From the NCBI GenBank assembly GCA_018897105.1, contig JAHILF010000014.1:1-46252 (forward strand): a stretch of 46,252 nt of DNA, written 5' to 3'. Source of the DNA: Pseudomonadota bacterium (GTDB lineage Bacteria; Desulfobacterota; Desulfobulbia; Desulfobulbales; SURF-16). The notes under the pieces are model-generated. The model did no database searches, was not told the DNA's origin, and saw only the letters and a list, made by a program, of their open reading frames with translations. Positions within the stretch are counted from its first letter, which is position 1. Every line of letters starts with the position of its first letter. The translations under genes and the position numbers were made by a program. Below are positions 4,611 to 43,921 of the stretch, piece after piece.

Positions 4611-4617
4611 TCGATTG

Positions 4618-4745
4618 CGGGATGAATCGAATACGGAATGCGGATTGCGAAGTGCGGAGATTGAAGCAGTGGTGTTCAATCCGCATCCCGCATTCAAAAA
4701 TCTGCATTCGACCGGTTCCGTAGTCAGAATTCCGTATTTGACCGG
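4618..4745 (+). repeat. heptanucleotide repeat cluster between cheW and the receptor gene
   Basis: The spacer is largely made of degenerate units of the GGAATGC/GGATTGC/GGAGTGC type in plus orientation (about 4633-4662) followed by the reverse complement (TCCGCAT, CCGCATTC; about 4679-4712), so the RNA could fold back on itself. The same units recur at 6555, 8035, 8494, 8950, 10000, 12968 and 13118. No gene lies here. Confidence 0.75.
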
Positions 4746-4754
4746 GAGAATGCC

Positions 4755-6206: not shown

Positions 6207-6228
6207 CCGATCAGGCAGGGGACGTGTT

Positions 6229-8496: not shown

Positions 8497-8569
8497 ATGC
8501 GGAATGCTGAATGTGGAATGCTGAATGCTGAATGCGGAGTGGGGAATGCGGAGTGGGGAGTGCTGAATG
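8494..8569 (+). repeat. heptanucleotide repeat array between cheA and the four-helix-bundle gene
   Basis: This is a nearly pure run of GAATGCG/GAATGTG/GAATGCT/GAGTGGG units. The last units supply the ribosome-binding site (GGAG, 8557-8560) and the start codon (ATG, 8567) of the next gene, six bases apart. Confidence 0.85.
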
Positions 8570-8932: not shown

Positions 8933-10011
8933 TTCCCCAATCGACAGGTTCCGCACTCCGCACTCCGCATCCGCCAATCCACGTTCTGTTGGTGGACGAC
9001 TCCCCCATTGCGCTGCACATCCTGCAACGCCTGTTGTCCCGCTCCCCCGACATCCAGGTGGTGGGCACCGCCGGTAACGGCAGGGAGGCATTCGATCTGC
9101 TTCCGGCGCTGAATCCCGATGTTATCTGCACGGATTTGCACATGCCGGTGATGGATGGCCTGGAGTTCACCCGCACGGTGATGGACAAGTATCCGCGCCC
9201 TATCCTGGTGATAAGCTTGTCGGTGGAACCGGGCTCGCCCAATATTTTTCGGTTGCTGGAGGCGGGGGCGCTGGATGTCTACCCCAAGCCGCGCGCCATC
9301 CTCGATGCGAATCAGGATACGCTGGCCCGGGAACTCACCAGTAAGATTCGCATCCTTGCCGGCGTGCATGTGTTCCGTCATCGCACCGCAGCAGCGATAC
9401 GCGTAACCCTGCCGCCTCTTTCGCTGCCTCCCCACGCCCTCGTGCGCATCGTGGCGATCGGCGCCTCCACCGGCGGGCCCCAAGTTCTGCGAGAAATTCT
9501 CTCCCGCCTGCCAGCCGATTTTCCGGTGCCGGTGGTGGCAGTGCAGCATATCGGCAACGACTTCCTCTCCGGGATGGTGGCATGGCTGGCCGAAGTCAGC
9601 CCGCTGCCGGTGCGCAAGGCAGTTCAAGGCGAGTTCCCACAAACCGGGGTGGTCTATTTTGCGCCCGAAGGCGCCCATCTGGAATTCAACAACAGCGGAC
9701 GATTTGATCTCACACAGGCTCCTCCTTGCGACGGCCACCGGCCCTCGGCGACCGTCACCCTGCGCGCGACGGCGCGCAGGTTCGGCGCCGGCACGGTGGG
9801 TGTCCTGCTCACCGGCATGGGCCGCGACGGCGCCGAGGGTATGGCCGACATCGCCGCCGCCGGTGGCGTCACCATCGCCCAGGACGAGGCAAGCAGCGTG
9901 GTTTACGGCATGCCCAAGGCGGCAGTGGAACTGGGGGCGGTGCAATACGTGCTGCCCCTCGAACAAATTGCCCCGGCGCTGGTGGCATTGGTGAAACGGA
10001 ATGCGGAATGA
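8929..10011 (+). CDS. cheB: CheB-type receptor methylesterase (REC + CheB catalytic domain)
   Basis: The 360-residue protein demethylates or deamidates receptor glutamates. After a 16-residue repeat-encoded N-terminus ([15 protein letters not shown]) comes the receiver (about 17-135; D23-D24, phospho-acceptor D69 in [12 protein letters not shown] in YPKP). The esterase domain occupies about 165-355, with the Ser-His-Asp triad visible as S in IGASTGGP, H in [10 protein letters not shown] and D in [13 protein letters not shown]. The start overlaps the previous stop (ATGA), and GGAG lies exactly 6 nt before it. It is the adaptation partner of cheR and the WspF equivalent. The repeat seems to have replaced or extended the original N-terminus ahead of [10 protein letters not shown]. 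Confidence 0.93.
8950..8978 (+). repeat. heptanucleotide repeats inside the first codons of cheB
   Basis: Reverse-orientation units (TTCCGCAC TCCGCAC TCCGCAT CCGCC) are translated as SALRTPHPP between the cheB start codon and the first beta strand of its receiver. Together with the array at 8494-8569 they flank the four-helix-bundle gene on both sides in opposite orientation. Confidence 0.8.
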
Positions 10012-10062
10012 CTGGAGTGCGGATTGCGGAGTGCAGAATGATTGGAGGTGGAATGATGAATG
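9999..10062 (+). repeat. heptanucleotide repeats between cheB and the first hybrid kinase
   Basis: GGAATGC, GGAGTGC, GGATTGC and GGAGTGC units span the end of cheB and the start of the next gene. GGAGG at 10044-10048 and the tandem ATGATG at 10053-10058 look like repeat-derived initiation signals. Confidence 0.75.
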
Positions 10063-12968
10063 AAAACGAATCGAAAGCGGAATCCGGAATTAACCAGCCA
10101 GGGGCAAATCGTGCCGTTCCCGTAGCTGAAGCTACGACCACTCCACACTCCGATATTCTGATTGTCGAGGACAGCGCTGTGGAAGCGGAAGTGCTCCGCC
10201 GCCTCCTCGTCAAGGCAGGTTACGCGGTGAGCGTGGCCCAAAACGGCGAGGACGGTCTGCACATGGTGCATGGATACCGTCCTGCCCTGGTGTTGAGCGA
10301 TATCAACATGCCGGTGATGAACGGCTACCAGTTGTGCAGTGCGATCAAGTATGACGATGACCTGTGGAATATCCCGGTAATCCTGCTCACGGTGCTGTCG
10401 GAACCGGAAGACATCATCGAAGCGATTAATTGCGGCGCTGATGCTTACATCGTCAAGCCTTTCGCCGAGGCCAACCTGCTTAACCGCATCCGTTCCCTAC
10501 TGAAGAACCCGACCGAGAGCCCAAGGATCAAAGAGCGGCGCAAGGAAGTGGTGGCCTACGACGGCAAGCGCTTCGCTATCGCTAGTACCAGCAAGCAGAT
10601 CCTGAACCTGTTGCTCTCGGTGTACGAGAACACTCTCCAGCAGAACCGGGAGTTGGAGGCCACCCAGGCCCAGCTCAACCTGCTGAACGAAAGCCTTGAC
10701 CAAAAAGTGCACGAGCGCACCGCAGCGGTACATGATTCCGAGGTACGCTATCGTCGTCTTTTTGAAGCGGCTAAAGACGGCATCTTGATCCTGAATGCCG
10801 AAACAGGCAGGGTCGTGGATGTGAATCCGTTCTTGATCGAGATGCTGGAATACTCCCACGAAGAGATCCTTGGTAAGTACATCTGGGAGTTGGGCTTCTT
10901 GAAAAATGTCGCGGCGAACAAGGAAAAATTTCTGGAATTGCAGCGGCAAGAGTATGTGCGCTATGACGATCTTCCCTTGGCAACCGCGACGGGAAACATG
11001 CTACATGTGGAGTTCGTCAGTAATGTCTATGTGGTGGATGACACTAAGGTGATCCAGTGCAATATTCGTGATATCACCGAGAAAAAACGCCTCGCCATGG
11101 AACTTGATGGGCACCACCATCACCTGGAGCAACTGGTCGAAACCCGGACCCACGAACTGGCCCAGGCCAAGGCCTCTGCCGAGGCGGCGAACATGGCCAA
11201 GAGCGCCTTTGTCGCCAACATGAGTCACGAGATACGCACGCCCCTGAATGCCATTATCGGGCTTACGCACCTGCTGCGGCGCAGGAACAGCGATCCCGCG
11301 CAGCAGGAGAAGCTTGGAAAGATCGTCGATGCCTCGCGCCACCTGCTCTCGGTGATCAACGACATTCTCGATTTTTCCAAGATCGAGGTAGGCAAACTGA
11401 CGCTCAATAACGACGACTTCGTCTTCGATCGCATGCTCGACAACGTCATCTCCATGATCGGCCCCAGGCTACGCGACAAAGGCCTGGAACTCGTCGTGGA
11501 GCGGGACGATTTGCCGCCCGTGCTGGTGGGTGATTCCACCCGGCTGGCGCAAGCCCTGCTCAACTATCTTTCCAATGCGGTGAAATTTACCAAGCGTGGC
11601 AGGATTACCGTGCGTTTTTGCATGACAGAGGAGAGCGCAACCGACCTGCTGCTGCGCTTTGAAGTGACGGACACCGGCATCGGCATTGCTCCTGAGAAGT
11701 TATCTTGCCTGTTCGCCGCCTTTGAGCAGGCCGATGCTACCACCTCGCGTCGCTACGGCGGCACGGGTTTGGGGCTCGCCATCAACCGGCGGCTGGCGCG
11801 TATGATGGGCGGGGATAGCGGCGTAGAGAGTGTGCCAGGCCAGGGCAGTACCTTCTGGTTCACCGCCCGCTTGGGCAAGAGCCAACTCAGCCTGGAAGAA
11901 TTGACCGAGGCACCCTTTGTGACCGAGCAGAGCTTGAAAACATTGTCAGCAGGTGGGCACATCCTGTTGGCCGAGGACAACCTGATCAACCAGGAGGTGG
12001 CGGTGGAACTCCTGACCGAGGTCGGACTGAAGGTGGAGGTCGCCAACGATGGCTTTGAGGCCTTGGAAAAAGCCAGCAAAGGCGACTATGACCTGATTTT
12101 GATGGATATGCAGATGCCGGGTATGGACGGCCTGGAGGCAACCCGCGCTATCCGCGAACTGTCCAACGGCGCGACGCTGCCTATCGTGGCGATGACCGCT
12201 AACGCCTTTGACGAAGATCGCGAACACTGCCGGGCGGCTGGCATGAACGACTTCATCACCAAGCCAGTCGATCCCGAGCAGCTGTTTGGCACGCTGTTGC
12301 GTTGGCTACCCGCAACAACGATGGTTATGCCCGCCGTCTCCGGCGCAACGGAGACGCTGCCCGCTGCCCTCGCTGCCATCCCCGGCCTGGACACCAAGCA
12401 GGGACTCAAGGTGCTGAACGGCAACGTCGAAGCCTTCCTGCGTCTGCTGCGCCTCTATGCGGTCGATCATGCCGACGACATGGCCCGACTGCTTGAGCTG
12501 ATTTCTTCGGAAGATTGGGACGAGGCCAGGCGGCTGGCCCATACCCTGAAAGGCAGTTCGGGCAATCTGGGTGCGACCGGCGTACAACAACTGGCCGCCG
12601 AATTGGAGGTCGCGATCAAGGAGGGCCACGATGCGACGGATATCGAACGATTGGTGCGCACACTTGAAACCGCCTTACAGCAGTTGGTTGCGAGGATACG
12701 CACTGCCCTGCCGGAGGAGGCTGCCGCCCCTTACGTGGGCGAAGTGGACTGGACGGTGGTGCGGCAGGTGCTGGCCGAACTGGAGCAGATGCTGGCGGCT
12801 TCCAGTGCGCAGGTCAACCAGATCATCGAGACCCACGCTGCGCTGCTCAAAGTCGCGCTCGGCCCCTTGGGCGCGGAACTGGAACAGCAGATTGGTCATT
12901 TCCTCTACGCCGAGGCTCTGGAAACCGTAAAGCAGGCGCGGCAGGAACACCCGGAGTTGGCAGGATAA
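10053..12968 (+). CDS. hybrid histidine kinase REC-PAS-HisKA-HATPase-REC-Hpt
   Basis: This 971-residue multistep phosphorelay protein starts at tandem ATGs (10053, 10056) after GGAGGT. Domains: a low-complexity, repeat-like N-terminus (1-33); receiver 1 (about 34-155; D83 in [11 protein letters not shown]); a coiled linker; a PAS domain (about 228-350, [19 protein letters not shown]); HisKA with H392 in [15 protein letters not shown]; HATPase (N box [11 protein letters not shown]2 [10 protein letters not shown]); receiver 2 (D685 in [13 protein letters not shown]); and Hpt with H830 in [13 protein letters not shown] helical C-terminal tail of about 85 residues follows, shared with its paralogue. 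No membrane segment is present, so it is cytoplasmic and may receive input from the CheA homologue through receiver 1. It is followed after a 42-nt repeat-rich gap by its larger paralogue. Confidence 0.92.
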
Positions 12969-13020
12969 ATGGGGAATGCGGCGTGGGGAATGAGGAATGG
13001 GGAGTGCGCAATGATGAATG
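12965..13020 (+). repeat. heptanucleotide repeats between the two hybrid kinase genes
   Basis: Units GGGGAATGC, GGCGTGG, GGAATGA, GGAATGG and GGAGTGC run up to the tandem start codons of the second kinase. The last unit places GGAG (13001-13004) six bases before ATG (13011). Confidence 0.8.
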
Positions 13021-16000
13021 AAAATGAATCGGATACTAAACCCGGAATTCACCCGCCAGGGGCAGGCCGTGCGCTTCCCGGGGCTGAGGCTCCGACCGCT
13101 ACGCGCCGGAGCACCGGTTCCATTCCGCATTCCGCAATCAGCACTCCGCAATCGGATACTCCACAATCCGAGATCCTGATCGTCGAGGATAACCCAGTGG
13201 GGGCGGAGTTGTTGCGCCGCACCCTCGCCCGGGCGGGCTACGTGGTGAGCGTGGCGCACAACGGCGAGGAAGGCCTGCAAGCGGCGCATACGCGCAGTCC
13301 CGCCCTGGTGATGAGCGACATCAACATGCCAGTGATGAACGGTTATCAGTTGTGCCGCGCCATCAAGGGTGACGATGAGCTGTGGAACGTCCCGCTGATA
13401 CTGCTCACGGTGCGGTCGGAGCCGGAAGACATCATCGAGGCGATCAACTCCGGTGCCGACGCGTATATCGTTAAGCCCTTCGCCGCAGCCGACCTGCTGG
13501 GCCGCATCCGTTCGCTGCTCGACACCCCGATCGAAAGGCGGCATGCGGAAGAGCGGCGAGACGAAGTGGTGTCCTACGGCGGTAAGCGTTACATCATTGC
13601 CGCTGGCGGCAAGCAGGTTCTGAACCTGATGCTCTCGCTGTACGAGAACATGCTCCACCTGAGCCGGGAACTGGTGGCCATCCAGACCGAACTCTACCTG
13701 CTGAACGGGAGCCTCGACTCGCAGGTGCGCGAGCGAACCGCCGCACTGCAGGAAAGCGAGGCACGCTTCCGCAATCTGGTGGAAACCACGAGCGACTGGA
13801 TTTGGGAGGTTGACGAGCAGGGCGTCTACACCTACGTGAGTCCGAAAATCCACGACCTCCTCGGCTATCTGCCCGAGGAGGTGATCGGCAAGACGCCTTT
13901 CGACTTGATGCCCGCCGAGGAGGCGCAACGGGTGGCGGATCTGTTTGGCGCCAGCATCTCGGCGCGCCAACCCCTGGTCAACATCGAGAATGTCAATTTG
14001 CACAAGGACGGCCATCGGCTCGTGCTTGAAACAAGCGCTGTCCCCGTCATCGACCGGGATGGCAAACTCTGCGGCTATCACGGTATCGATCGCGACATCA
14101 CTGGGCGTAAGCAGGCCGACGCGGCACTGGCCCAGGTCAACCGCGCCCTGCGCGTACTGTCGACGGGCAATCGCTTGCTGGCGCGGGCGACCAGCGAGGA
14201 TGAGTTGATCCAGACCTCCGTGCGCAATATCGTCGACAAGGGGGGCTATGGTCTAGCAGGAATCTGCTATGCCGATGACGACCCGGAAAAGACGCTCACG
14301 CCCGTGGCCTCGACTGGCGCCGGGGAAGACTTCCCTCCGACGGAGTGCCGCACCTGGGCCGATACCGACGCGGGCCAGACGCCGATTGCTCGTGCCATCC
14401 GTAGCGGCAAGGTGCAGGTTTGCTGCGACATCGTCAGCGCCCCGGGATTCGCACCCTGGAAAGACGCCACGCTGGCCCACGGCTATACCGCGAACATCAC
14501 ACTGCCCCTCTGCGACGGGGGTAGGGTCTTCGGCGCCTTGAGCATCTATTCGTCAGGGACGACTGCCTTTGATGATGAGGAAACCACGCTCCTGGGAGAG
14601 ATGGCCGAAGATATTGCTTACGGCATCATCAGCCAGCGGGCACGGGTTGCGCTCAAAGCCGCCGAGCAGGCGCTACGTGATAGCGAGGAAAGATACCGGG
14701 AGCTGTTCGAGAGTTCGCGCGATGCCTTGATGGTGCTGAAGCCTCCGTCCTGGCGCTTCACTGACGCCAATCAGGCAACGCTGCAAATGTTTGGGGCCGC
14801 CAGCAAGGCCGAGTTCGCCTCCCTTGTTCTATGGGACGTTTCGGCCGAGCGGCAACCCGACGGACGCCCCTCGGTGGAGGTGGCACCGGAGATGATCGCG
14901 ACCGCCCTGCGCGATGGTTCGCTTCTTTTTGAGTGGGAACACCGGCGCCTGAACGGTGAAACCTTTGCCGCCGAGGTGCTGCTGACACGCATTGAGACGG
15001 GGGGGCAGATATTCATGAAGGGCACAGTACGCGATGTCAGCGCGCGTAAGCGGGCAGAGCAGGCACGGGCGGAATCCGAAGTTCTACTCAGGACCATTTT
15101 CGACTCCGTCCAGGACGGAATCGTCCTGGTGGACGCCGAAACCAAGCAGTTCAAAATGGGCAACACCTCGCTTCACCGCATGCTCGGATATAGCTCCGAT
15201 GAGTTTCTCGAACTGAGGGTGGATGATATCTATCGCAAGGAAGACTTCGCCAACGTCAACCGTCAAATCGAGCGTCAGCTCGAAGGCAAAATCAGTCTCG
15301 CGCAGAATATGCGGGTGAAGAGAAAGGACGGCACGATTTTCTATGCGGATATCAATGCCACTCCAATGATGGTGAGGGGAGATTCCTATCTTCTTGCCGT
15401 TTTCAGAGACATCACCGAACAAAAACACCTGGTGCTGGCGCTCCAGGAACAAAATATCCAACTGGAGAAGGCCAAGGTAACGGCCGAGACGGCGAATGTG
15501 GCTAAGAGCGCCTTTATCGCCAACATGAGCCACGAGATACGCACGCCCCTGAATGCCATCGTCGGCCTCACCCACCTGTTGCAGCGCGGCAATCCCGATC
15601 CGGCGCAAACGGAGAAGCTGGGCAAAATCGTTGATGCCTCCCGACACCTGCTCTCGGTCATCAGCGATATACTCGATTTTTCCAAGATCGAGGCGGGCAA
15701 GCTAACGCTGTGTGTCGGCGCTTTTGCCGTCAGCCCCATGCTGGACAACGTCATCTCCATGATCGGCCCCAAGGTACGCGACAAGCGTTTGGAACTCGTC
15801 GTGGACCGGGATGATCTGCCGCCGGTGCTGGTGGGTGATTCCACCCGGCTGGCACAGGCCATGCTCAACTATCTTTCCAACGCCATCAAATTTACCGAGC
15901 AGGGCAAGATCAGCGTGCAACTTTCCAAGATGGAGGAAACGCCAACCGACCTGCTGTTGCGCTTCGAAGTGACGGACACCGGCATCGGCATTCCGCCTGC

Positions 16001-17303
16001 CAAGATTGCGGACTTGTTCGCCGCCTTTGAGCAGGTCGATGTCAGCACCTCGCGCCGCTACGGCGGTACGGGCTTGGGTCTCGTCATCACCCGGCGGCTG
16101 GCGCAGCTTATGGGGGGCGAGGCGGGAGCCCAGAGCGTACCAGGCCAGGGCAGCAGCTTCTGGTTTACCGCCCGCCTCGGCAAGAGCAATCTCAGGCCGG
16201 AAGAACTGGCAGGTGAGATGGCCGCCGTCGCCGAATTGAGTCTGCAAGCCATGCCGCCTGGCGTCCGCATTCTGTTGGTCGAAGACAACAAGATCAATCA
16301 GGAAGTCGCGGTAGAGTTGCTGGCTGAGGTCGGGCTGCTGGTGGAGATCGCAGGCGACGGTTTTGAGGCATTGGCGAAAGCTCGTGATGGCGGTTATGAC
16401 CTGATCCTTATGGATATGCAGATGCCGCGCATGGACGGTCTGGAGGCAACCCGCGCCATCCGTGCGCTGCCCGGCTACGCGACGCTTCCCATCCTGGCGA
16501 TGACCGCCAATGCCTTCGATGAGGATCGCGAACGCTGCTATGCCGCCGGCATGAATGACTTCATCGCCAAGCCGGTCGATCCGGCGCAGCTTTTCAGCGC
16601 CTTGCTGCGCTGGCTGCCAGGCGACACCGCGATGATTCCTCCTTGCGGCCATGTCGAGGGAAGGGCGCTTCCCGCCGCACTTGCGGCTATTCCAGGTCTG
16701 GAGACCGAACGAGGTCTCAAGATGCTGAACGGCCACTTGGCCACCTACCTACGCTTGCTACGTCGCTATGCGGTTGACCATGCAGCTGACATGGCCCGGC
16801 TGCAGGAGCTCATAGACCAGGACGATTGGGATGGGGCCAAGCGCCTTGCCCATACCCTGAAAGGCACCTCGGGTATGCTGGGGGCGACCGGTATGCAGCA
16901 TCTGGCCGCCGAACTGGAGACAATGATCAAGGAGGACGGCCACGACCTGGCTGTCATCGAACGGCTCTCCAACTCTGTGGGAAGCGAGCTCCATCGACTG
17001 ACAGCGGCAATCCTCTTGGCCCTGCCGGAGGAGGCTACGGTCACCTATGAAGGCGAAGTGGACTGGGCAGTGGTACGGCAGGTGCTTACCGAACTGGAAG
17101 CAATGCTGGCGGTAGATAGTAGCCACGCCAACCAGATACTTGAACAACACGGCGCGCTGCTTAAGGCCGCCCTTGGCCCTCTAGGCATGGAATTGGAACA
17201 GCGAATCGAACATTTCCGCTACCCAGAGGCTTTGGAGACCCTACAGCGGGCACAAAAGGGGCACCCGCAACTGGCGATCCGTAACATGGAGAATGAAACG
17301 TGA
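13011..17303 (+). CDS. hybrid histidine kinase REC-PAS-GAF-PAS-PAS-HisKA-HATPase-REC-Hpt
   Basis: This very large (1430 residues) paralogue of the preceding kinase shares the same N-terminal MMNENES start, receiver (D103 in [11 protein letters not shown]), kinase core (H841 in [16 protein letters not shown]2 [10 protein letters not shown]), receiver 2 (D1135 in [13 protein letters not shown]), Hpt (H1281 in [12 protein letters not shown]) and C-terminal tail. Between the receiver and the kinase core it has gained extra sensors: PAS ([20 protein letters not shown]), GAF ([18 protein letters not shown] onward), PAS ([17 protein letters not shown]) and PAS ([19 protein letters not shown]). In-frame heptad repeats at 13118-13172 encode [18 protein letters not shown] ahead of the first receiver. 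No membrane helices are seen. The pair likely arose by tandem duplication followed by sensor-domain insertion. Confidence 0.92.
13118..13172 (+). repeat. in-frame heptanucleotide repeats in the N-terminus of the second hybrid kinase
   Basis: Reverse-orientation units (TTCCGCAT TCCGCAA, CTCCGCAA, CTCCACAA) are translated as [16 protein letters not shown] directly before the receiver strand EILIVED. The first kinase has a shorter version (TTPHSD) at the same place, so the repeat has grown or shrunk since duplication. Confidence 0.8.
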
Positions 17304-34323: not shown

Positions 34324-34569
34324 CTACGCCTCGGCTTCCTTGGTTGTATCCTTGTACTCCTTGCTGTCGGTGACCTTTTCGCCTTCGATTTCCTCTATCT
34401 CCTCTCTGGTCAGATGAATCTGGCCACAGGTTGGACAGGCGCCATCGAAATTATTGCCTACAGTAACCTTTCTTAATTCATCAACAGTCATATGGCCCAC
34501 ATAGCCACAGGCGCTGTCTGTCCTGGTGACACGTATTTGATGTCGCTTCTTCTGGGTCGTATCAGTCAT
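34324..34569 (-). CDS. small CPTC-containing protein at the end of the hydrogenase operon
   Basis: The start at 34569 has AAGGAG at good spacing and gives 81 residues beginning MTDTTQKKRHQIRVTRTD. One CxxC (GACPTCGQIHLTREEIEE) and an earlier Cys (SACGYVGHM) could bind a metal. The C-terminus is highly acidic and lysine-rich. I do not recognise the family. It is the last gene before the terminator and is separated from mvhA by a MITE-like insertion, so it was probably closer to mvhA before the insertion. Function unknown; a hydrogenase-linked role is an inference from position. Confidence 0.7.
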   Translation of the reverse strand: MTDTTQKKRHQIRVTRTDSACGYVGHMTVDELRKVTVGNNFDGACPTCGQIHLTREEIEEIEGEKVTDSKEYKDTTKEAEA

Positions 34570-34591
34570 CACCAAGTTCTCCTTATATATT

Positions 34592-34767
34592 GAGCCTCTT
34601 GCAAAATGAACATCTACTCCGATCGCTAAAAATAACCTGTGCGGCGTCTTCCTGGTGAAATCGTCCACAACGGAGCACTGCTATGCTTCCGGGCGATTTC
34701 ATCACTCATCCTGGCCCAGAATATTTTTCTCTCGATCTCGCTACGACGTTCATTTTGTAAGAGGCTC
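34592..34767. mobile_element. MITE-like element, 176 bp, with 20-bp terminal inverted repeats
   Basis: The ends GAGCCTCTTGCAAAATGAAC (34592-34611) and GTTCATTTTGTAAGAGGCTC (34748-34767) are inverted repeats with one mismatch in 20. The interior has no transposase; a minus-strand frame runs through it but looks incidental or like a transposase-terminus relic. No clear target duplication was found. It lies between mvhA and the last operon gene, inside the transcribed unit. Confidence 0.75.
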
Positions 34768-34775
34768 TGTTGTAT

Positions 34776-34805
34776 GCAGCAATTCCTTTGACAAGGAATT
34801 GCTGC
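34776..34805 (-). other. perfect 13-bp hairpin just after the mvhA stop codon
   Basis: GCAGCAATTCCTT (34776-34788) and AAGGAATTGCTGC (34793-34805) pair fully around a 4-nt loop, six bases past the mvhA TAA. There is no T-run on the minus strand. It may slow 3' decay, reduce read-through to the last gene, or be a former terminator cut by the neighbouring MITE. Confidence 0.6.
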
Positions 34806-34810
34806 GTTCA

Positions 34811-36262
34811 TTATTCCAGGTTGGTCAGAACGTCAATTTCTTTTCCCTGGGCATTAATGATAGATACGGTCAAAGGCATACCACCATCCAGGTGGTGCGT
34901 GGCGCAGGAAATTCAGGGGTCATAGGCGCGCACCGCCATTTCCACCTTGTTAAGCATGCCCTGATCATAAACGCCGTCTTTAATCAGCATGGTTGCCGCC
35001 TGTTTGACGCTCATATTCATGGGCGCAATATTGTGGGTGGTGCCCACAATCAGATTGGCGCTGACAATGCAGCCGTTATCATCGGTTGTGTAATCATGGA
35101 TAAGAGAGCCGCGGGGAGCTTCCACACAGCCCACCCCTCGTCCTGCCTTCGGTTCGACCTTGGCCCTGATGTTGGGATCAGTGATGCTTTTATCCTGCAG
35201 CAACTCGATGGTCCGTTCACAGGCGTAAACAAGCTCAATCAAACGGGCCCAGTGATAGAGCAAGGTGAACTGGGCCGGTCTGCCGAATTTTGCCCGGAAC
35301 TCTTCCAGGGCTGCCTGTGCCTTGGGGGTGCCAATGTGATCGCACACATTGATCCGGGCCAGGGTATTGGAACGGTAGATGCCTTTGGGATGGTCCAGAT
35401 CCATGGAGAATCCCTCCTTCCATGACTTGGCATAGGGCATTTTGGCATAGGCCCATGGTTCCACATGCTCGGCAAGGTAGTCGGTGTATTCGGAACAGGG
35501 GAAGTCGACGTACTCGCCGGTGGGCTGCATGAGCCGCAGTTTACCGTCATAAATCCTCAGCGCGCCATTGTCGTCCACTGTGCCGAGGAACCCGGTGGTG
35601 ATCGTGCCCAGTTTGGAAATGACGTCCAGGTACTTGTTAAAGACATTGTTTTTGGCAAAGTCCAAGGCGTAGACGGCAAAATCAAGCAATGTCTCCGTGT
35701 CCCTGAGCAGACCGACGCGTTCCGGTTCGGTCATGGGTTTGGCAAATCCGCCGGTAACGCCGGCGATGGGATGAATCGCCTTGCCGGCAAAACGCTCCAA
35801 CATCATCTGGCCCAGCTGGCGCATCTTGACCACCTGTTGGGCAAGCTCCGGTGCGGCTTTGACGATGCCGATAACATTACGCACTGCATAGTCGCTGTCC
35901 GGACCAATGACAAAATCAGGTGCGGCCAGGAAAAAGAAGTGCAGAATTTTATCGTTGATATGGGCCATCACCTGGCAGAGTTCGCGCAGCTTATGACCGG
36001 CCGGGGTCGGGGTGACGCCGAAACAGGCGTCCACCGCCTTGACCGAGGCCAGGTGATGCATCCACGGACAGATGCCGCAGATGCGGTTGACGATACGTGG
36101 TACTTCCTCTGCCGGACGTCCCTCAATGAATTTCTCAAATCCCCTTAGAGACATGAGATGCAGTTTTGTGTCTTTGACATTGCCGTTATCGTCGAGTTCA
36201 ATGGCAATGCTCGCATGGCCCTCGATCCTGGTAACTGGCTGAATAGTTAATACTTTTCCCAT
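34811..36262 (-). CDS. mvhA: [NiFeSe] Mvh-type hydrogenase large subunit, selenoprotein
   Basis: This 483-residue catalytic subunit reads through a UGA at 34913-34915 as selenocysteine 450. The N-terminal nickel motif is RICGICPWMHH (L1). The C-terminal motif is DPU-IS-C-ATHH, where families have DPCxxCxxH; the frame goes on for 33 more residues (LDGGMPLTVSIINAQGKEID, ending LTNLE) to TAA at 34811. Stopping at UGA would remove two of the four nickel ligands. A hairpin at 34880-34896 fits a bacterial SECIS. The residues after ATHH would be the peptide removed by the maturation protease encoded first in the operon. Mvh oxidises H2 and passes electrons through MvhG and MvhD to HdrA. The ATG follows mvhG by 11 nt with AAGGAG before it. 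Confidence 0.92.
34880..34896 (-). promoter_or_regulatory. candidate bacterial SECIS hairpin of mvhA
   Basis: Read on the minus strand, 16 nt after the UGA a 6-bp stem ACCACC/GGTGGT encloses the loop TGGAT. Bacterial SECIS hairpins sit just downstream of UGA within the coding region and have G in the first positions of the apical loop. The same spacing and loop occur in mvhD. Confidence 0.75.
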
Positions 36263-36273
36263 ATTTGGCTCCT

Positions 36274-37197
36274 TTACTCTGTAGGCCGTTGCTGTCTGAT
36301 CAGGCCGTGGGCGCCAGAGAATCGCAACAGGTTTTTACGGTCTATGACAGATTTGAAATCAATGCCGTTGCTGGCAAGAGCGTTCATCATATCAAGCATC
36401 TGATTGCCGCCTTTTCTGACAGGGCCGAAACAGCCGCGGCAGGGTACCCGGGCGATGATGCAGCTCGGTGCTCCGCGTTTGGCGCATCCGGCCAAGGTCA
36501 CCGGTCCCATGCACATGAAGCCCTGCTCAAGCAGGCAGCGCATTTTGTCGATGGGTTCCTCGGCAATATAGGCCGCATTTTCCAGAAAACGCCTGACCTT
36601 CTTGACATCGCCTTTACCTTTTCTCACGGTGGGACAGGTGTCGCAGACGCTTTTAGTCGGCAGTTTGAACTCTTCGCCGTTGAGCAGGGAGAGAATTGCC
36701 CCGGCAATATGCTGGGAATTGGGCGGGCATCCGGGAATCATCAGATCGATCTTGACCTTTTCATCCAGCGCATAAACCCGGTCAAGGGGTTTCGGCACGT
36801 TCTGATCCGGTACCGTGCATGCATCAGTGGTGACAGTCTGGTAAATCTGTTTATGGGCTTCGCCGACGTCCCAGTTATTCATCAGGGCGGGCAACCCGCC
36901 GTGGGTGGCGCAGGTGCCCAAGGCAATGAGGATCTTGCATTTCTTGCGCATTTCCTCAAGAACTTCCAGATGTTCTTCGTTGGCGACACCGCCGGAAACA
37001 ATGCCCACATCCGCTTCAGGGATGTCAAGCTCTTTTCCCTCGCCGGTCTGGCCGTAATACTTGTGGTCCATGAGCACGGGTATGTGAACAAACTCAAGGA
37101 CCGACAGCAACTCAACAAGGGGTTCACCGATATTGAGTATGGCAATCTCGCAGCCGGAACACGAGTGCAGCCATTCTTCCGCAATTCGAACAGCCAT
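36274..37197 (-). CDS. mvhG: Mvh-type hydrogenase small (electron-transfer) subunit
   Basis: The 307-residue Fe-S subunit shows the family start EEWLHSCSGCEIAILNIGEP with the proximal-cluster CxxC, the middle ALGTCATHGGLPALMNN and MIPGCPPNS, and C-terminal cysteines for further clusters (KSVCDTCPTVRKGKG, RCLLEQGFMCMGPVTLAGC, CIIARVPCRGCFGPV). It carries electrons from the NiFe(Se) site to MvhD. It has no Tat signal, so the complex is cytoplasmic, as expected for Mvh. It lies 14 nt after mvhD with AAGGAGG before its ATG. Cys is used normally throughout; it is the only catalytic-core gene of this set without a UGA. Confidence 0.93.
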   Translation of the reverse strand: MAVRIAEEWLHSCSGCEIAILNIGEPLVELLSVLEFVHIPVLMDHKYYGQTGEGKELDIPEADVGIVSGGVANEEHLEVLEEMRKKCKILIALGTCATHGGLPALMNNWDVGEAHKQIYQTVTTDACTVPDQNVPKPLDRVYALDEKVKIDLMIPGCPPNSQHIAGAILSLLNGEEFKLPTKSVCDTCPTVRKGKGDVKKVRRFLENAAYIAEEPIDKMRCLLEQGFMCMGPVTLAGCAKRGAPSCIIARVPCRGCFGPVRKGGNQMLDMMNALASNGIDFKSVIDRKNLLRFSGAHGLIRQQRPTE

Positions 37198-37211
37198 ATC
37201 AACCTCCTTTA

Positions 37212-37631
37212 TTACGCTGCATGCGCAGCTTCGCTTTTGTGTGGGCCGAGTTTTTTGACTCGTTCCGTCACCTGCTTAACCGCTGCAACGAATTTGTCCG
37301 GTTCTGCCGACGATACCCAGTTTATTTGAAACCGCTGCGGATCAACTCCGAAATCCTCCAGAAGAGAGGTGATCATCTCCGAGCGGGCCATAGCCTTATA
37401 ATTACCATCCAGGTAATGACATTCACCAAGGTGTCAGCCAAGGACCATGATGCCGTCGGCCCCCAGATTAAAGGCCTCCACCACCGTTTCCGGATGGACC
37501 ATACCCGAGCACATTACCCGGATAATACGGATATTGCTCGGATACTCCATACGGGATATCCCGGCCAGGTCTGCTGCGGCGTAAGAACACCAGTTACAGC
37601 AAAAGGCAATTATTTTTGGTTCATAACTCAT
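37212..37631 (-). CDS. mvhD: MvhD [2Fe-2S] electron-transfer subunit, selenoprotein
   Basis: The 139-residue protein links the hydrogenase to HdrA. It begins [19 protein letters not shown] with the conserved Cys cluster, then [16 protein letters not shown] at 37434-37436 falls in [18 protein letters not shown], exactly at the first Cys of the family motif GCHxGxCHY, and is read as selenocysteine 66. The rest ([20 protein letters not shown] and on to TAA at 37212) is the normal C-terminal half; without read-through the protein would lose more than half its length. A SECIS-like hairpin lies at 37401-37417. VhuD of Methanococcus is a known selenoprotein at the same place (family knowledge). AAGGAG precedes the ATG. 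Confidence 0.93.
37401..37417 (-). promoter_or_regulatory. candidate bacterial SECIS hairpin of mvhD
   Basis: On the minus strand, 16 nt after the UGA, ATTACC/GGTAAT form a perfect 6-bp stem around loop TGGAT. Spacing, stem length and loop sequence equal those in mvhA although the coding sequences around them are unrelated. Confidence 0.78.
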
Positions 37632-37697
37632 GATTGACTCCTTATTTCAGTAATCTCATGATATGTGATTTGAGCAAATAGCATATTCTCACCCTGC

Positions 37698-40600
37698 TTA
37701 CACCGCCAGGGCGGCTGCGACCTGTTTGTTGATCTGATCAAGGGAGAAACCGGCGACAAAGACACCCCGTTTCGGGCACGTGCCCTGGCAGAGTCCGCAA
37801 CCCTTGCACTGGGCCTTGTTGATCTCAATGCGGCGGGAGATTTTGCCTTCATTATCCTTGTATTCCATCAAGCTGATGGCTGAAAAGGGGCAGACATCCA
37901 GACAGAGGGCGCAGCCGTCGCAGTTATCCTCAACCACGGTTGCCTTGATTGCCTCAAGGGTGATCGATTCCTTGGAGAGCAGGGTTGCGGCCCGCGCGGA
38001 GGCGGCCATGGCCTGGGCAATGGATTCTTCCACCGGTTTGGGATAATGGGCCAGACCGGCGACAAACAAACCGTCGGTGACAAAATCCACCGGCCGCAGC
38101 TTGGCATGCGCTTCCTGGAAGAAGCCGTCAGAGTCAACAGGAATCTTGAAGAGCTGGGCAATCTTCTTGCCATCCTGGTTGGCCAGAATCGCCTCCGCCA
38201 GAATCACTACATCGGCACTGATGAACAGGGGACGGTGCAGGACATGATCCCATACCTCCACCTGAATGCCGGCCATGTCATGCTTGACCAGGGGTTTGCC
38301 GTGGAGCTCGTAATTGATGAAAATAACACCCAGCTGCCGGGCCTCCTTGTAGAGAAGTTCCCGTTCGCCGTATGTCCGCATATCCCGATAGAGGATATAA
38401 ACCTTGCGGGTTGCATCCTCCTTTTTCAGTCTGATGGCCGACTGGACGGAATGGGTGCAGCACACCTTGGAGCAATATGGTCTGTCTTTCTGGCGGGAGC
38501 CGACACATTGGATAAAGACAAAGGTTTTACCTTCTTTGACATTGATGTCACCTGCTTTACGCAGGGTATCGAATTCAATGCCGGTGTAGACACCCTTGAT
38601 TTCACCGTAGCCGTATTCCTTCAGGGGACGGAAGCGTTTGCCGCCGGTGGCGATAATGCCCGCTCCGTGTTCGATCACGGTCTTGTCGCCCGCCTTGTTC
38701 TGCACCGTGGTGCGGAAATTGCCGACATATCCCTCAACCTCTTTTATCTCGCTCTGCAGATGCAGGGTGATATTGTAGTGGTTCTCGATCCGGGCGGTCA
38801 TGTTGGCCAGCTGTGGTTTGATCTCGTCACCCTTCCAGGTATGGTCCAGCATGCGGGCAAAGCCGCCAAGCTGGGCGCTCTTTTCAACAAGATGGACCGG
38901 GAAACCCTGGTCAGCCAGGTTGAGCGCCGCAGTCATACCGGCCAGACCGCCGCCGACAACCAGCGCCGCCCGGGTGACCGGCACGGAAAGCTGATGCAGG
39001 GCAAACTGGGGCGATACCTTGGCCACGGCCATGCGGATCAGGTCTTTGGCCTTGGCTGTGGCCTTGGCCGGTTCCTTGGCATGCACCCAGGAATTCTGGT
39101 TGCGGATGTTGGCCATTTCAAAGAGATACTCATTGATGCCTGCAGCTTTGAGCGTTTCCCTGAACAACGGTTCATGGGTGCGTGGTGTACAGGCCGCGAC
39201 CACAACCCGGTTCAGGCCTTTTTCCTTGATCAGGTTTACCATGAGATCCTGGGTGTCCTGGGAACAGGTGAAGAGGTTGCGTTCCACATGGGCAACTCCG
39301 GGCAGGGTAGCTGCGTAATCCGCTACACTCGAAACGTCGACCACGCCGGCAATATTGGAACCGCAGTGGCAGACAAAAACGCCGATCTTTGGCTCCTCGC
39401 AGGAGATATCCCGTTCAGTGGGGAAGATTTTGTCCCGGGTCAGGGTGTGGCGGCTCGTTGCCAGCAGGTTACCGGCACCAGCCGCGGCCGCCGATCCCTC
39501 GATAACCGATTGGGGGATATCCTTGGGTCCGGCAAAGGCGCCACAGGTGAATATGCCGGGTTTGGAGGTCAGAACAGGCATGAAGTTTGAGGTAGCGGCA
39601 AAATTACCGCTGGTGAGCTGGATGCCGAGATTCTTGGCCAGTCTGACCACGGGTTTCGGGGTTTGCAGACCAACCGACAGGACCACCATGTCATAATATT
39701 CTTCAACCTGGCGACCTTCCTCATTAATATAATGCAGACGCAGATCGCCGTCCGTACCGTGGGGTTCAACGCCATGTACCCGGCATCTCATGAAGCGAAC
39801 GCCGGATTCTGATTTGGCCCGCTGGTAATAGCGGTCAAAGTCCTTGCCGTGGGTCCGCATGTCCATGAAGAAGATCGTGGTCTGCAGTCCTGGGACATGG
39901 TCCTTGGCGATGACCGCCTCTTTGATGGCATACATGCAGCAGACCGAGGAGCAGTAGCCGTTGCCGCACTTGTTTTCATCACGGCTGCCGACACACTGCA
40001 GAAAGGCGATTTTCCTGGCCGATTTACCGTCGGAGGGGCGGATGAGATGCCCCTCTGTCGGACCCGTGGCCGAACAGTAGCGCTCAAGCTGCATGGAGGT
40101 GATGACGTTGGGCAGGGTGCCGTAGCCCCAGATGCCCGCATCTTTGGGATCAAAGGCTTGGAAGCCGGGGGCAAGGATAATCGAGCCCACGTTTATTTCA
40201 TGATTCTTTTCCGTATCCTCGAAATTGATGGCGCCAGCCGGGCACACCTTGGCGCAAAAACCGCATTTGCCCGGTTTCTGCAGATAAATACACTGATCGG
40301 CATCGATCTGGTATTTGAGGGGCACTGCCTGGGAATATTTGACGAAAATCGCTTTGCGTTTTTTTGTGGAGGCGTTGTAGTCATCATCTACTTTTTTGGG
40401 ACATTTTGCCGCGCATTCACCACAGGCAATACATTTAGTCATGTCCACATAACGGGGATGTTCCTTGACCGATACGATAAAGTTGCCTTCGCTGCCGCTT
40501 ACTCCGGTGACCTCGCTTAAGGTCATCAACTGTATATTTAAGTGCCGACCGCACTCAACCAATTTTGGCGCGATGATTCACATCGAGCAGTCATTGGTGG

Positions 40601-40760
40601 GAAAGGTCTTATCCAGCTGGGCCATGGCGCCGCCAATGGCGCCGCTGCGTTCCAGCAGATAGACATAGTAACCTGAGTTGGCGAGGTCCAGGGCTGACTG
40701 CATACCCGCAATACCGCCGCCGACAACCATTACCGATCCTATTGTTTGCTCTCTTGACAC
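37698..40760 (-). CDS. hdrA: double-length HdrA flavoprotein, selenoprotein
   Basis: This 1020-residue HdrA starts at GTG (40760) with AAAGGAGG 8 nt upstream. It has a first FAD domain (VMVVGGGIAGMQSALDLANS) and UGA at 40578-40580 in TNDCSM-U-IIAPKLVECGRH, where HdrA has Cys; I read it as Sec61. Ferredoxin motifs follow (CIACGECAAKCPKK; CGFCAKVCPAG), then a second HdrA-like half (VFVCHCGSNIAGVVDV, RVVVAACTPRTHEPLFRETL, ALVVGGGLAGMTAALNLADQ). C-terminal 2[4Fe-4S] sites are DNCDGCALCLDVCPFSA and CKGCGLCQGTCPKRG. HdrA is the flavin site where H2 electrons are bifurcated, one branch to ferredoxin and one to HdrB. Long HdrAs of this type are common in Desulfobacterota. A naive caller would split it at the UGA. 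Confidence 0.93.
40538..40558 (-). promoter_or_regulatory. candidate bacterial SECIS hairpin of hdrA
   Basis: On the minus strand, 19 nt after the UGA, TTGAGTGC and GCACTTAA form an 8-bp stem (one G-U pair) around loop GGTCG. The loop resembles the GGUC core of the E. coli fdhF SECIS. It is slightly longer and 3 nt further from UGA than the other three. Confidence 0.68.
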
Positions 40761-40805
40761 GGTTTGTTCCTCCTTTACATAGGAAAGTGAGAGAAGAGAT
40801 TTTTG

Positions 40806-42263
40806 TTATTTCTTAGTGGGAATTACCACTGAATCAGAAACAAGCTCCCAGAGATATTTTACCTCAATGCCGAGATCGAATTCTTTATTAAGTGATTTTT
40901 TCAGCTGGTCGCGGCAGTTATGGCAGGGGGCGATGACCATTTTCGCCTCACACTCCTGGATCTGCCGGGCCTTTATGCGGCCGTAGAAGACCCTCTCCGG
41001 GGCATAGGGCATGGCCCAGGCGCCGCCGCCAGCACCACAGCAGTAGTTGCCGTTGCGGTTAGGCTCCATATCGACAAAGGAGGGACAGCAGGCTCGTGTG
41101 ATAATTCTGCCTTCCTCGAAATAACCGTGGCCAAAGGCTTTCAGCGATTTGCGGCCATAGTTGCACGGGTCGTGGTAGGTAGTGAGTTTGGTATGGATGG
41201 TGTTGTCAAGGGTGATGCGGTTTTCCCGCATATATTCGAGCAGAAGATCAAATACGGAATAAATTTTTATTTTCTTGAGTACTTCAGGAAACCATTTGTT
41301 CAACCCGAACCGGGTTGCATAATATGCGTGGCCTCATTCGGGTAGGAGCAAGGCCTCGCAGTGCAACCTCTCCAGGTTGTCGACAATCCGGCCGACAATG
41401 GTCTTCATGGCCTCGTCGTCACCGGAAAAGAGACCCCAGTTGACTCCCTCCCAGTTGTCGGCAGAGACTGTCCAGGATTCATTGGCGGCATAGAAGATCT
41501 TCCACCACCATTTCATATCATCCGGTTCGGCAAAAGGCTCTTTTGAATTGACGGTAATCAACAGTCTTGAGCCGCGCACTTCCAGCGGGGTCGTGAACCC
41601 GGGGCATGTGTCCGCGGCAAGTTCTTCACCAAGATCCTGCAGCAGAAAGGCAAAATCATCCTTGGGGATGCCGAGATTGTTGCCGCGCTCAAGACACATG
41701 GCGACACCCTTGTGGATGGGGCCGGGCACCAGATTTCGCGGACGTCTTGAACGAAGACGACGCATGAGCTTGACGATCTCAACGTTCATGGGGCAAGCCT
41801 CTTCGCATTTGCCGCACATGGTGCATTTCCATGGCCAGCTGCTTTCAATCAGCTCCTCTTCCAGCCCTAAAACAGCCATGCGCACAATCTTGCGCGGGTC
41901 AAGGCCGTTGACCCCGGCGATGGGACAGGCGCTGGCGCAGGTGCCGCAGGTCAGACAGACATCACCCCAGGATGGATCGTCAAAAAGGGTATTGGTTTTT
42001 TCGCCGAGTTGAAGAACCGGTTGACCGGCTTGGGCAGTGGTGATCGTTTTCAGCTCCTCGATCTCAACTGCCATTTCCATATTGACTTTAGGAATGATGC
42101 CGAACTTGTCACATAAGGCTACATAATCTGACACCTTCATAGCATAACGCTTGCCAGGCCCCTCCTGCGCAGGCAAGGTTCCCGAGTTAATCCAATTGCG
42201 AATGGTGTTTCGGTGGACACCAAACTCCTCCGCCAGATCAGCAACTTTAAACTCATACATCAT
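40806..42263 (-). CDS. HTH-ferredoxin-HdrB-like fusion Fe-S protein (HdrC/HdrB type), selenoprotein
   Basis: The 485-residue protein combines parts rarely seen together. Residues 1-60 are a MerR/excisionase-like helix-turn-helix (FKVADLAEEFGVHRNTIRNW, then INSGTLPAQEGPGKRYAMKV). Two [4Fe-4S] motifs follow (CLTCGTCASACPIAG; CTMCGKCEEACPMN), as in HdrC. The C-terminal half has HdrB/HdrD-like cysteine-rich modules: LLLPE-U-GHAYYATRF, where UGA at 41334-41336 replaces the Cys of PECGHAY (Sec310), and YHDPCNYGR, ACCPSF, NYCCGAGGG, APCHNC. The frame stays open on both sides of UGA. It probably supplies the HdrBC function of the complex, since no separate hdrB or hdrC is present. The HTH could make it a redox-responsive regulator or be a structural relic. 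It overlaps the protease gene by 11 nt. Confidence 0.88.
41301..41317 (-). promoter_or_regulatory. candidate bacterial SECIS hairpin of the HTH-Hdr fusion gene
   Basis: On the minus strand, 16 nt after the UGA, CAACCC/GGGTTG form a perfect 6-bp stem around loop GGTTC. The geometry is the same as in mvhA and mvhD. Confidence 0.75.
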
Positions 42264-42777
42264 GAACAGTCACCTCGCTTTGGGTTGTGGATAGAATATC
42301 CATTATCTTCTGACAGGCTTTGGGAACGGCAGCTGCCATTGCCGGGGAAAGACCAAGTGAAACCTCTTCTGGCAACGATTCAACCTGTGCCACAACAATC
42401 GTTACTTTCATGTCGGTGAATTGCTGCAGTTCCTGCAGCATATTTACGGTTGGAAACTGATGAAGAGAAAAATCGTGGAGTTTTTTTGCAGGAACGGCTG
42501 ATGGGTCAATTTCAAAGACTTCGCCGGGGTTTTTATCATCTCTGTCTATGGCATCGACAATGATCAGATGTCGCGGCCTGTCTTTTTCCGACAGGAGGTA
42601 ATCGAAGAGATATTCGCGGACTCCGGTCCCCACATCGGCGACACTCACCCCAAGGGGCAGGTGCATTTTGCGCTGCAGTAGCTGTTCGATCACTGCAGGC
42701 CCGAATCCGTCATCCCCGATCAAGGGATTTCCGCATCCGAAAACAACAGCAGTAGGTGCTTTTTCTTGGTTTTCCAT
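42253..42777 (-). CDS. hydrogenase maturation endopeptidase (peptidase M52/HyaD-HycI family)
   Basis: The ATG at 42777 (MENQEKAPTAVVFGCGNPL) gives 174 residues; a longer frame upstream lacks family similarity. The family signature GCGNPLIGDDGFGPAVIEQL holds the nickel-sensing acidic residue. DVGTGVREYLFDY, LIIVDAIDRDD and HDFSLHQFPTVNML continue the usual fold and give the metal-binding His. These proteases trim the C-terminal peptide of the NiFe large subunit after nickel insertion, after the His of DPCxxCxxH. The substrate is very likely MvhA of the same operon, whose extension follows DPUISCATHH. It is the first gene of the operon and overlaps the next by 11 nt. Confidence 0.9.
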   Translation of the reverse strand: MENQEKAPTAVVFGCGNPLIGDDGFGPAVIEQLLQRKMHLPLGVSVADVGTGVREYLFDYLLSEKDRPRHLIIVDAIDRDDKNPGEVFEIDPSAVPAKKLHDFSLHQFPTVNMLQELQQFTDMKVTIVVAQVESLPEEVSLGLSPAMAAAVPKACQKIMDILSTTQSEVTVHDV

Positions 42778-43113
42778 TTTGTGCCTCTTGTGCAAATTGT
42801 GCATAATGAAATTCAGAATGGTAAAACGCCTCATAATAGGTATTTATACTTATTAAATACTAACTCCCTAGAATTGTGTCAATATATAATTATAACTTTT
42901 TTTGTATCGAATATGTAACAGATTGAAAGCGTTAGAGAATTTTGTTCACATTGCACAAGGTGAACAAGGCGCACAAGGTGCAAGTGAAGAAGCATTCAGT
43001 ATTTTGGTTACTGATGTCTGCTTGAGAGCCGTTTTAACAGCTGTAAAGGAGAATGTATGGTTTATCCCGTTCAAAGAGAAAGAGGGGGATATACAGAATC
43101 GGTCAAGCCCTTA
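42778..43113. promoter_or_regulatory. promoter region of the hydrogenase operon, with a dyad at 42840-42860
   Basis: The AT-rich stretch holds a 7-7-7 dyad, GTATTTA (42840-42846) and TAAATAC (42854-42860), a candidate operator for the operon. Further right, GCACAAGGTG is directly repeated at 42953-42962 and 42971-42980. A plus-strand frame across the direct repeats (42902-43117) looks spurious. No -35/-10 or sigma-54 boxes could be assigned with confidence. Confidence 0.4.
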
Positions 43114-43512
43114 TTAATCCAAATCAATGCCGTTTATATCAATTTGCAGCCATGCTATGGCATCATTGATATTTTTGAATACCATCGTCTCGATAGCCGA
43201 GTCAAAGCTCTGTTCCTGAAAGGCGCGGTTTGAGCCGTAGAGTAAGTTGCTTGGGGCCACGATGGCGCAACGTTCATTGATGAATTTGTCGGCAAAAACC
43301 TCCTTGAGACTGGCAAGTTTTTGTTCTTCCGCCGTGGATACCTGGTAATCGTCGCAGAGCCGGCAATCCACCAGTTTTTTCATCGGCGAAACGTATCGCT
43401 CATCCTGGCTCAGTTCTTTAAAATGGCGGGCAAGAGCGTTAGCATCCACTGTACCGATCAGTCTGGTATAAACCAGTTGCAGTCTATCTATGAACTGATA
43501 AACAACGGCCAT
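43114..43512 (-). CDS. SpoIIAA/STAS-like small protein of unknown function
   Basis: From the Met at 43512 the protein has 132 residues (MAVVYQFIDRLQLVYTRLIG, then TVDANALARHFKEL). The alternation of strands and helices and the motif KLVDCRLCDDYQV resemble the SpoIIAA-like/STAS-SEC14 superfamily, which often sits in signalling contexts or binds lipids. It has no phosphorylatable Ser motif that I can point to. The start is uncertain because no clear ribosome-binding site is seen; the frame also opens at 43545. It is on the same strand as, but upstream of, the hydrogenase promoter region. Confidence 0.55.
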   Translation of the reverse strand: MAVVYQFIDRLQLVYTRLIGTVDANALARHFKELSQDERYVSPMKKLVDCRLCDDYQVSTAEEQKLASLKEVFADKFINERCAIVAPSNLLYGSNRAFQEQSFDSAIETMVFKNINDAIAWLQIDINGIDLD

Positions 43513-43921
43513 GATCATCTTTATATATTTTAAGTTAAGCGGCATAGCGCTGAAGGGGAGAAGTTGGTTGGATTTCTCGACTGATAATTATTCTTGCACA
43601 AACAATCTGCACAAAGCAAAGTTTTTTTCAGCACAGGAGTAAAAAAAGGAAGGTGGCTATTTAGAAAATCGTTCAGCGATCAGGGGAGGACTAAGGCCGG
43701 GAAACAGATTTAATTTTTCCACCAGATGAGAGGGCTGAATTTTTTTCGTGGTTTTTACGGGAATCATTCAGTTCCCGGCTTTGGTAAAGGAAAAATAAAA
43801 TTTGTCCCCTCTGGCGCTCGGTCTTAAGTTGGAGACATTTTATGATAATCTAGATAGTGCTCAAGGCAGGCCCCATTTGCATGCTTCTGTCGCCGTTCAA
43901 AAGATGATGGGGAGCTTTATC
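43513..43921. other. intergenic region with short dyads, no gene seen
   Basis: A small inverted repeat (CGGGAA...TTCCCG) at about 43759-43779 lies downstream of the minus-strand gene at 43922-44461 and might end its transcript, but no T-run follows. Several A/T tracts occur. A plus-strand frame at 43802-44086 is a shadow. Confidence 0.3.

Follow-up and report, generated by a model that had tools for sequence, protein, structure and literature searches.

The contig JAHILF010000014.1 of a Desulfobulbales bacterium (assembly GCA_018897105.1), analyzed here as one whole contig of 46,252 nucleotides and called the window in the following, carries an Mvh-Hdr hydrogenase-heterodisulfide reductase operon on its minus strand. 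Its second gene encodes HTH-Hdr, a helix-turn-helix (HTH) domain fused to an Hdr-like electron-transfer protein. The gene products probably form a cytoplasmic Mvh-Hdr complex, in which HTH-Hdr would additionally bind 9-bp direct repeats and adjust the expression of its own operon. Operons with four selenoprotein genes are not new and have been in print since 2006. The new part appears to be the DNA-binding domain of HTH-Hdr together with a matching repeat in its own control region.

Direct repeats in the operon leader

The repeat unit GCACAAnnn was found in two clusters. Cluster 1 consists of three direct repeats on the minus (sense) strand at 42779-42802, directly before the probable start of hycI. 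Cluster 2, with the sequence GCACAAGGT GAACAAGGC GCACAA, lies in opposite orientation on the plus strand at 42953-42976, approximately 150 bp upstream of cluster 1. The double-repeat pattern GCACAANNNGCACAA (12 bases) occurs exactly only twice in the 4.95-Mb host genome, both times in cluster 1. With one mismatch 25 further copies were found genome-wide, two of them in the operon leader, while the reversed control pattern at the same mismatch limit gave 8 copies in all. The first-pass annotation, made from the sequence of the window, had named the HTH and missed its candidate operator, the more interesting part. A weak, tentative promoter, TTGACA-17-TATTTA (42854-42882, minus strand), was read from the sequence between the two clusters. 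It was absent among the consensus promoter hits, and the promoter scanner result was not above chance (2 sites versus 1.3 in shuffles). HcpR was considered as owner of the repeats and rejected on shape, because the published HcpR site TTGTGAnnnnnnTCACAA forms an inverted repeat (PMC545781).

For relatives, distinct 1500-bp upstream stretches were compared; duplicates and stretches below 900 bp were dropped, except one 307-bp control. Upstream of the HTH operons, 25 of 95 stretches carried the pattern at 12/12 bases and 31 at 11/12 (56/95 with at least 11), versus 0/25 at this limit for HTH-less Hdr operons. The reversed pattern reached at least 11 bases in 2/95 and 1/25 stretches, respectively. 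A profile built on residues 1-55 detected the HTH in all 95 loci of the HTH set and in none of the 25 control loci. Using 570-bp stretches (other lengths and duplicates dropped), 57/95 reached 11 bases compared to 11 of 2000 first-order shuffles. Same-strand GCACAA pairs of the HTH set were spaced by 9 bp in 33 cases, by 8 bp in 8 and by 18 bp in 6, and no such pairs were found in the HTH-less set. The 9-bp direct repeats are associated with HTH-bearing operons and, judged from sequence, represent a candidate BldC-type operator.

Copies elsewhere were analyzed in 17 HTH genomes selected for an exact site at their own operon. There, 20 of 33 exact sites were located at the operon, and the other 13 formed 12 loci, 8 inside open reading frames (ORFs) and 4 intergenic. 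All 4 intergenic loci precede hdrA or a [NiFe] hydrogenase. In three related genomes (G396:C12, G514:C9, G496:C18) the site stands before a second Sec-bearing (Sec, selenocysteine) hdrA-mvhD pair, with 54-56% identity for the second hdrA and one in-frame stop in each hdrA and mvhD. The fourth locus (G186:C129:6341) precedes genes for the small and large subunits and the cytochrome b of a [NiFe] hydrogenase. Seven exact sites were counted in nine genomes that lack a full-length match to HTH-Hdr.

Domains and predicted fold of HTH-Hdr

HTH-Hdr (40806-42263, minus strand) matched the Pfam domains HTH_17 (32.9 bits, above the cut-off of 27), Fer4 and CCG. It is made up of a BldC-like HTH (residues 3-53), an HdrC-like part with 2x[4Fe-4S] and an HdrB/EtfD-like CCG part. 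An AlphaFold2 model was built from 37 sequences (predicted local distance difference test, pLDDT, 83.4; predicted template modeling score, pTM, 0.74). Its predicted fold matches EtfD (Z 24.3 over 364 residues) and HdrB (Z about 18-19), followed by HdrC (Z 11.4). Residues 3-53 of the predicted model match BldC on whiI DNA with 51/51 residues aligned, Z 6.4 and a root mean square deviation of 2.3. Across the 37 aligned sequences, HTH residues show hardly any variation, for instance at H17-N23.

BldC (6amk) shares the winged HTH (wHTH) fold, seen for HTH-Hdr in the HTH_17 score and the predicted model, and binds 9-bp direct repeats of the type AATTXXXX(C) head-to-tail (PMC5859096), which compares to the candidate 9-bp repeats described here. 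However, BldC is a free-standing protein of 68 residues without effector domain, whereas the HTH of HTH-Hdr is fused to a redox protein part of approximately 430 residues. HTH-Hdr is best described as working like the BldC-type regulators and is not a member of that group.

The HdrC-like ferredoxin domain and the CCG fold are common to HTH-Hdr, EtfD (9ojn) and HdrB (5odc, 8rvu). HdrB noncubane-cluster proteins have two complete CCG motifs. In HTH-Hdr the C-terminal one is complete (C367, C408, C409, C447 and C450 retained) and H312 is invariant, but the N-terminal one is degenerate: C302 and U310 remain, with nothing at the spacing of EtfD C503 and C538. Ligands of the EtfD noncubane cluster are C637, C672, C673, C709, C712 and His583, those of its linear cluster C503, C538, C581 and C584 (PMC13083937). 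By motif alone U310-G-H312 may resemble EtfD C581-x-H583. Equivalence of Sec310 and Cys581 was not demonstrable by sequence and profile (hidden Markov model) alignments, which begin past the motif, and a gapless back-count from them would place the two residues about four positions off. HTH-Hdr also matched the DsrK, HmcF and TmcB models, all under their cut-offs.

Predicted selenocysteine in four subunits

The first-pass annotation had claimed four selenoproteins with a single in-frame UGA each, placed exactly on a family cysteine, and this held. One TGA per gene with coding sequence continuing beyond was found in mvhA (34811-36262; Sec450 in DPUxxCxxH, here DPUISCATHH), mvhD (37212-37631; Sec66 in LGUHLGECHY), hdrA (37698-40760; Sec61 in NDCSMUI) and HTH-Hdr (Sec310 in PEUGHAY, TGA at 41334-41336), all on the minus strand. 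The Sec residues of MvhD and HdrA are presumably cluster ligands. A total of 77 of the 193 genomes of the order contain an HTH-Hdr relative (E<=1e-30, paralogues counted). HTH-Hdr of a Proteobacteria bacterium shows 98% identity, and that of Desulfurivibrio sp. SURF_16, the closest relative with a genus name, 95%. Neighborhoods were read for 60 loci, for the best 80 of 344 named loci and for 20 loci from the wider phylum. Many named loci were the same records as others; later counts were made on distinct sequences. TGA is retained at the homologous codon across the orthologues of all four families, with TGC/TGT as chief alternative, therefore the in-frame TGAs are not due to chance. Counted as distinct sequence contexts, Sec versus Cys was 70/2 for mvhA, 55/39 for mvhD and 76/28 for hdrA, while the HTH-Hdr site gave 77 Sec, 29 Cys, 4 Ser and 1 NNN. 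Ser (PESGHAY or PESGHSY) was found in L086, L124, L141 and L171, and Sec is therefore not strictly needed at this position. In mvhD of L156 and L163, Cys for Sec is accompanied by an altered neighboring motif (GCHLDECR versus GUHLGECH).

The host genome, assembled to 4.95 Mb in 177 contigs with 100% completeness and 2.29% contamination, encodes the full machinery. selB and selC were looked for specifically, and both are present. The tRNA-Sec (71.5 bits, also found by ARAGORN), selB (373 bits), selA (616 bits) and selD (380 bits) all scored above curated cut-offs, and selD carries one in-frame TGA of its own. Reading of the four UGAs as Sec is supported at the level of the genome sequence. Outside of the window the host has another hdrA/mvhD pair with Sec. 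The genome also encodes two HdrD-like paralogues that lack the HTH, both with TGA at the E-U-G-H site and with hdrA genes close by (contigs C119, 2040-3206, minus strand, and C50, 3643-4779, plus strand).

A selenocysteine insertion sequence (SECIS) was searched for as a bacterial-type hairpin with its loop 16-37 nt past the codon and G within the first two loop bases. Such hairpins lie just 3' of the UGA and were near-universal in Sec orthologues (mvhA 64/70, mvhD 51/55, hdrA 76/76, HTH-Hdr 75/77), whereas they were much rarer in Cys orthologues (1/2, 4/39, 11/28 and 12/29, respectively) and absent from the Ser ones (0/4). Pairing in the stem columns reached 91-98% of cells for Sec orthologues, compared to 24-42% with partners slid by 2-4 and 51-64% for Cys orthologues of mvhD, hdrA and HTH-Hdr (those of mvhA being too few). 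Since the window, itself a Sec sequence, supplied the reference stem, this comparison favors the Sec set. The weight of the predicted SECIS elements is carried by the Sec versus Cys contrast and the stem columns.

Sec and Cys states among related operons

Ninety-three distinct operons, all with sufficient length of the three genes, were classified by their states in the order HTH-Hdr, hdrA, mvhD. UUU was found in 55, UUC in 9, CUC or SUC in 5 and CCC or SCC in 24 of them; four of the eight state combinations were unseen. No operon of this set combined Cys in hdrA with Sec in HTH-Hdr or mvhD, and none combined Sec in mvhD with loss of another site. MvhA carried Sec in 71 of the 72 operons with the site aligned (unaligned in 21). 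All-or-none switching of the three sites, as suggested by the first 60 loci, was rejected by mixed states in the named loci. On a quick-build tree with flagged long branches, the fewest changes between Sec and non-Sec were 7 for HTH-Hdr, 4 for hdrA and 7 for mvhD, counts which give no direction. We infer from the nesting an order of loss with mvhD first, then HTH-Hdr, then hdrA. Phylogenetic pair tests all agreed in direction (median p 0.125-0.25), but the 4 changes of hdrA are too few for significance to be attainable. The nested states, with MvhA almost always Sec, form a natural series for asking for the benefit of Sec at each electron-transfer step. In G123, G162 and G183 a UUU operon with hydrogenase coexists with a CCC copy without detected mvhG/mvhA, which recalls Methanococcus voltae, for which PMC2702500 cites a pair of Sec and Cys hydrogenases. 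Desulfogranum marinum DSM 2058 has a Sec copy and a Cys copy as well (L107 and L146).

Proposed mechanism and alternative explanations

In the proposed complex of this sulfate-reducer-type desulfobacterium, with UGA read as Sec in four of its five structural proteins, H2 would be oxidized at the NiFeSe site of MvhA. Electrons would pass via MvhG and MvhD to the double-FAD (flavin adenine dinucleotide) HdrA and would there probably be bifurcated to ferredoxin and to HTH-Hdr, which would take the place of HdrC and HdrB. DsrC, encoded in the genome, is a candidate electron acceptor solely by analogy. HTH-Hdr would bind the GCACAAnnn repeats head-to-tail at the two clusters around the operon start region and tune the expression of its own operon; in some relatives, another hdrA locus or a hydrogenase linked to the membrane may be under its control as well. 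HTH-Hdr might respond to how its Fe-S/Sec site is loaded or to the redox state there, or else to whether the protein is occupied in the complex. We tentatively go one step further: HTH-Hdr may be a Sec-containing transcription factor and terminal electron-transfer subunit in one, which reads electron flow at its own Fe-S/Sec site and, by head-to-tail assembly on the 9-bp repeats, sets how strongly its operon is expressed. A second Sec hdrA-mvhD locus or a hydrogenase would be controlled likewise in some relatives. If true, this would be an unusual case of a Sec-bearing redox enzyme controlling its own expression. The DNA-binding domain and its candidate operator offer a direct handle on the role of this GlpC-like protein and on the tuning of hydrogen metabolism.

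Several observations weigh against the proposed Mvh-Hdr selenoprotein complex with an autoregulating HTH-Hdr. A total of 39 of the 95 HTH operons have no site with at least 11 bases, and the 25 controls are other operons, mostly of other families, so that the HTH is not the sole difference. The intergenic sites outside of the operon come from three related genomes and one other, and were spotted after the fact. The Z of 6.4 for BldC is within the range where small common folds score too. HTH-Hdr, MvhA, MvhG, MvhD and HdrA all score under NCBIfam equivalog cut-offs. Concerning the SECIS elements, stems were conserved with almost no compensatory changes, the folds of single sequences did not differ significantly from shuffled ones (z -0.35 to -1.50), and the loose hairpin test also passes at 829 of the 2354 codons of the five genes of the window.

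The same 39 operons, together with an association with operon type that is not fully separable from that with the HTH, would fit an HTH-Hdr that only transfers electrons. Its HTH would then be a relic or serve for docking, and a different regulator of hydrogenase/Hdr operons would bind the GCACAA repeats. We regard this as unlikely, given near invariance of HTH residues such as H17-N23, binding of 9-bp direct repeats by BldC-type HTHs and sites with at least 11 bases also in 7 of 12 HTH-Hdr loci without detected hycI. Control might also be translational, with the repeats as RNA leader or ribosome-site element, as they overlap with the first-gene start in many genomes: cluster 1 is located within 26 bp of the ATG at 42777 and many sites are near the hycI start. 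Cluster 2 and sites in several relatives, however, lie approximately 80-200 bp further upstream and in opposite orientation, which makes an RNA element very improbable. That the UGAs are true stops in decayed genes or the result of assembly errors is barely conceivable. No point in its favor was found, and against it stand retention of the same codon in distinct genomes with HTH-Hdr identities of 63-98%, the full Sec machinery and the SECIS contrast between Sec and Cys orthologues. Finally, the first-pass annotation had suggested that the serial Sec residues serve faster turnover or oxygen resistance. The near-constant Sec of MvhA is in line with this idea, as is the protective function that PMC13188914 ascribes to Sec at the Ni site. 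Nevertheless, we consider it rather doubtful, since the Sec/non-Sec state changed on the tree at least 7 times in mvhD, 7 times in HTH-Hdr and 4 times in hdrA, Ser is found at the HTH-Hdr site in 4 distinct sequence contexts, and for three of the four sites there are lineages with Cys.

Relation to known systems

A five-gene operon glpC-hdrA-frhD-frhG-frhA with four Sec genes has been described for Syntrophobacter fumaroxidans and Desulfotalea psychrophila (PMC1794560). The operon of the window shares its five genes, their order and the four Sec-bearing families. The text found of PMC1794560 makes no mention of a DNA-binding domain on GlpC or of an operator, and the term 'helix-turn-helix' is absent from it. 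A 2026 review speaks of a 'four-selenoprotein-gene operon', lists the motif UGH, shared by PEUGHAY, for an Fe-S oxidoreductase-like selenoprotein and calls the interplay of FrhA/FrhD with the other two selenoproteins unclear; another Sec-bearing putative regulator, of the FmdB family, is listed by name only (PMC13188914). Sec in the PECGHAY motif of an HTH-fused protein had initially been proposed as possibly undescribed; in view of this listing and of the two HTH-less host paralogues this is not supported in that form. As for novelty of the HTH-fused protein, its Sec motif is known, while no description of the HTH-Hdr fusion, its regulon or a double role as enzyme and regulator was found in the literature searched, mainly non-subscription.

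In Desulfobacterium autotrophicum Sec was reported for HdrA, HdrD4, HdrL, HdrF2 and MvhD (PMC2702500). The H2-driven Hdr complex of Methanococcus (VhuU/VhuA-VhuG-VhuD-HdrA) likewise carries Sec in the Ni-site subunit, the D subunit and HdrA. In contrast, the operon of the window encodes a double HdrA and, in place of HdrB and HdrC, an HdrC/B-like fusion that bears Sec and an HTH. The SECIS position in this operon is of the bacterial type, and the encoded proteins score under the Vhu equivalog cut-offs. HdrR of Methanosarcina barkeri is also an HTH regulator tied to an hdr operon. Unlike the HTH-Hdr fusion it is a separate archaeal protein, with no Hdr domain mentioned in the abstract (PMC11218639).

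Gene content of the operon and its surroundings

The minus strand encodes, in this order, hycI, HTH-Hdr, hdrA, mvhD, mvhG and mvhA. Two small corrections to the first-pass annotation concern hdrA, which is a double HdrA with two FAD domains, and hycI, with which the apparent operon begins. hycI (42253-42834, minus strand) encodes a hydrogenase maturation protease of the HycI type (PF01750, E 6e-22). Its true start is probably the ATG at 42777 (MENQEK), because GAGG shortly precedes it. mvhD matched PF02662 (E 9e-54). The hydrogenase small subunit gene mvhG (36274-37197, minus strand; PF01058) is without in-frame TGA, and its closest NCBIfam model is VhuG. mvhA, for a [NiFeSe]-type large subunit (PF00374), matched VhuA and VhuU, both under their cut-offs. 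With bits versus cut-offs of 492/800 (VhuA), 210/450 (VhuG), 148/215 (VhuD) and 963/1100 (HdrA2), the encoded proteins are, by sequence scores, relatives of the Vhu/Mvh-Hdr families and not the named equivalogs.

Within the window neither RNA families (Rfam, gathering scores) nor a tRNA (ARAGORN) were detected. Directly after the mvhA stop an 18-nt hairpin (34771-34810) may act as terminator. It adjoins an inverted repeat of 23 nt (91%) with arms 130 nt apart (34592-34767), perhaps a small mobile element. Two small minus-strand ORFs without Pfam match flank the operon, at 34324-34668 (114 aa, Cys-containing) and 43114-43545 (143 aa). Far from the operon, a run of plus-strand ORFs at 1387-17303 resembles, by eye and with no family search made, chemotaxis proteins (CheR, CheW, MCP, CheA, CheB) and hybrid histidine kinases.

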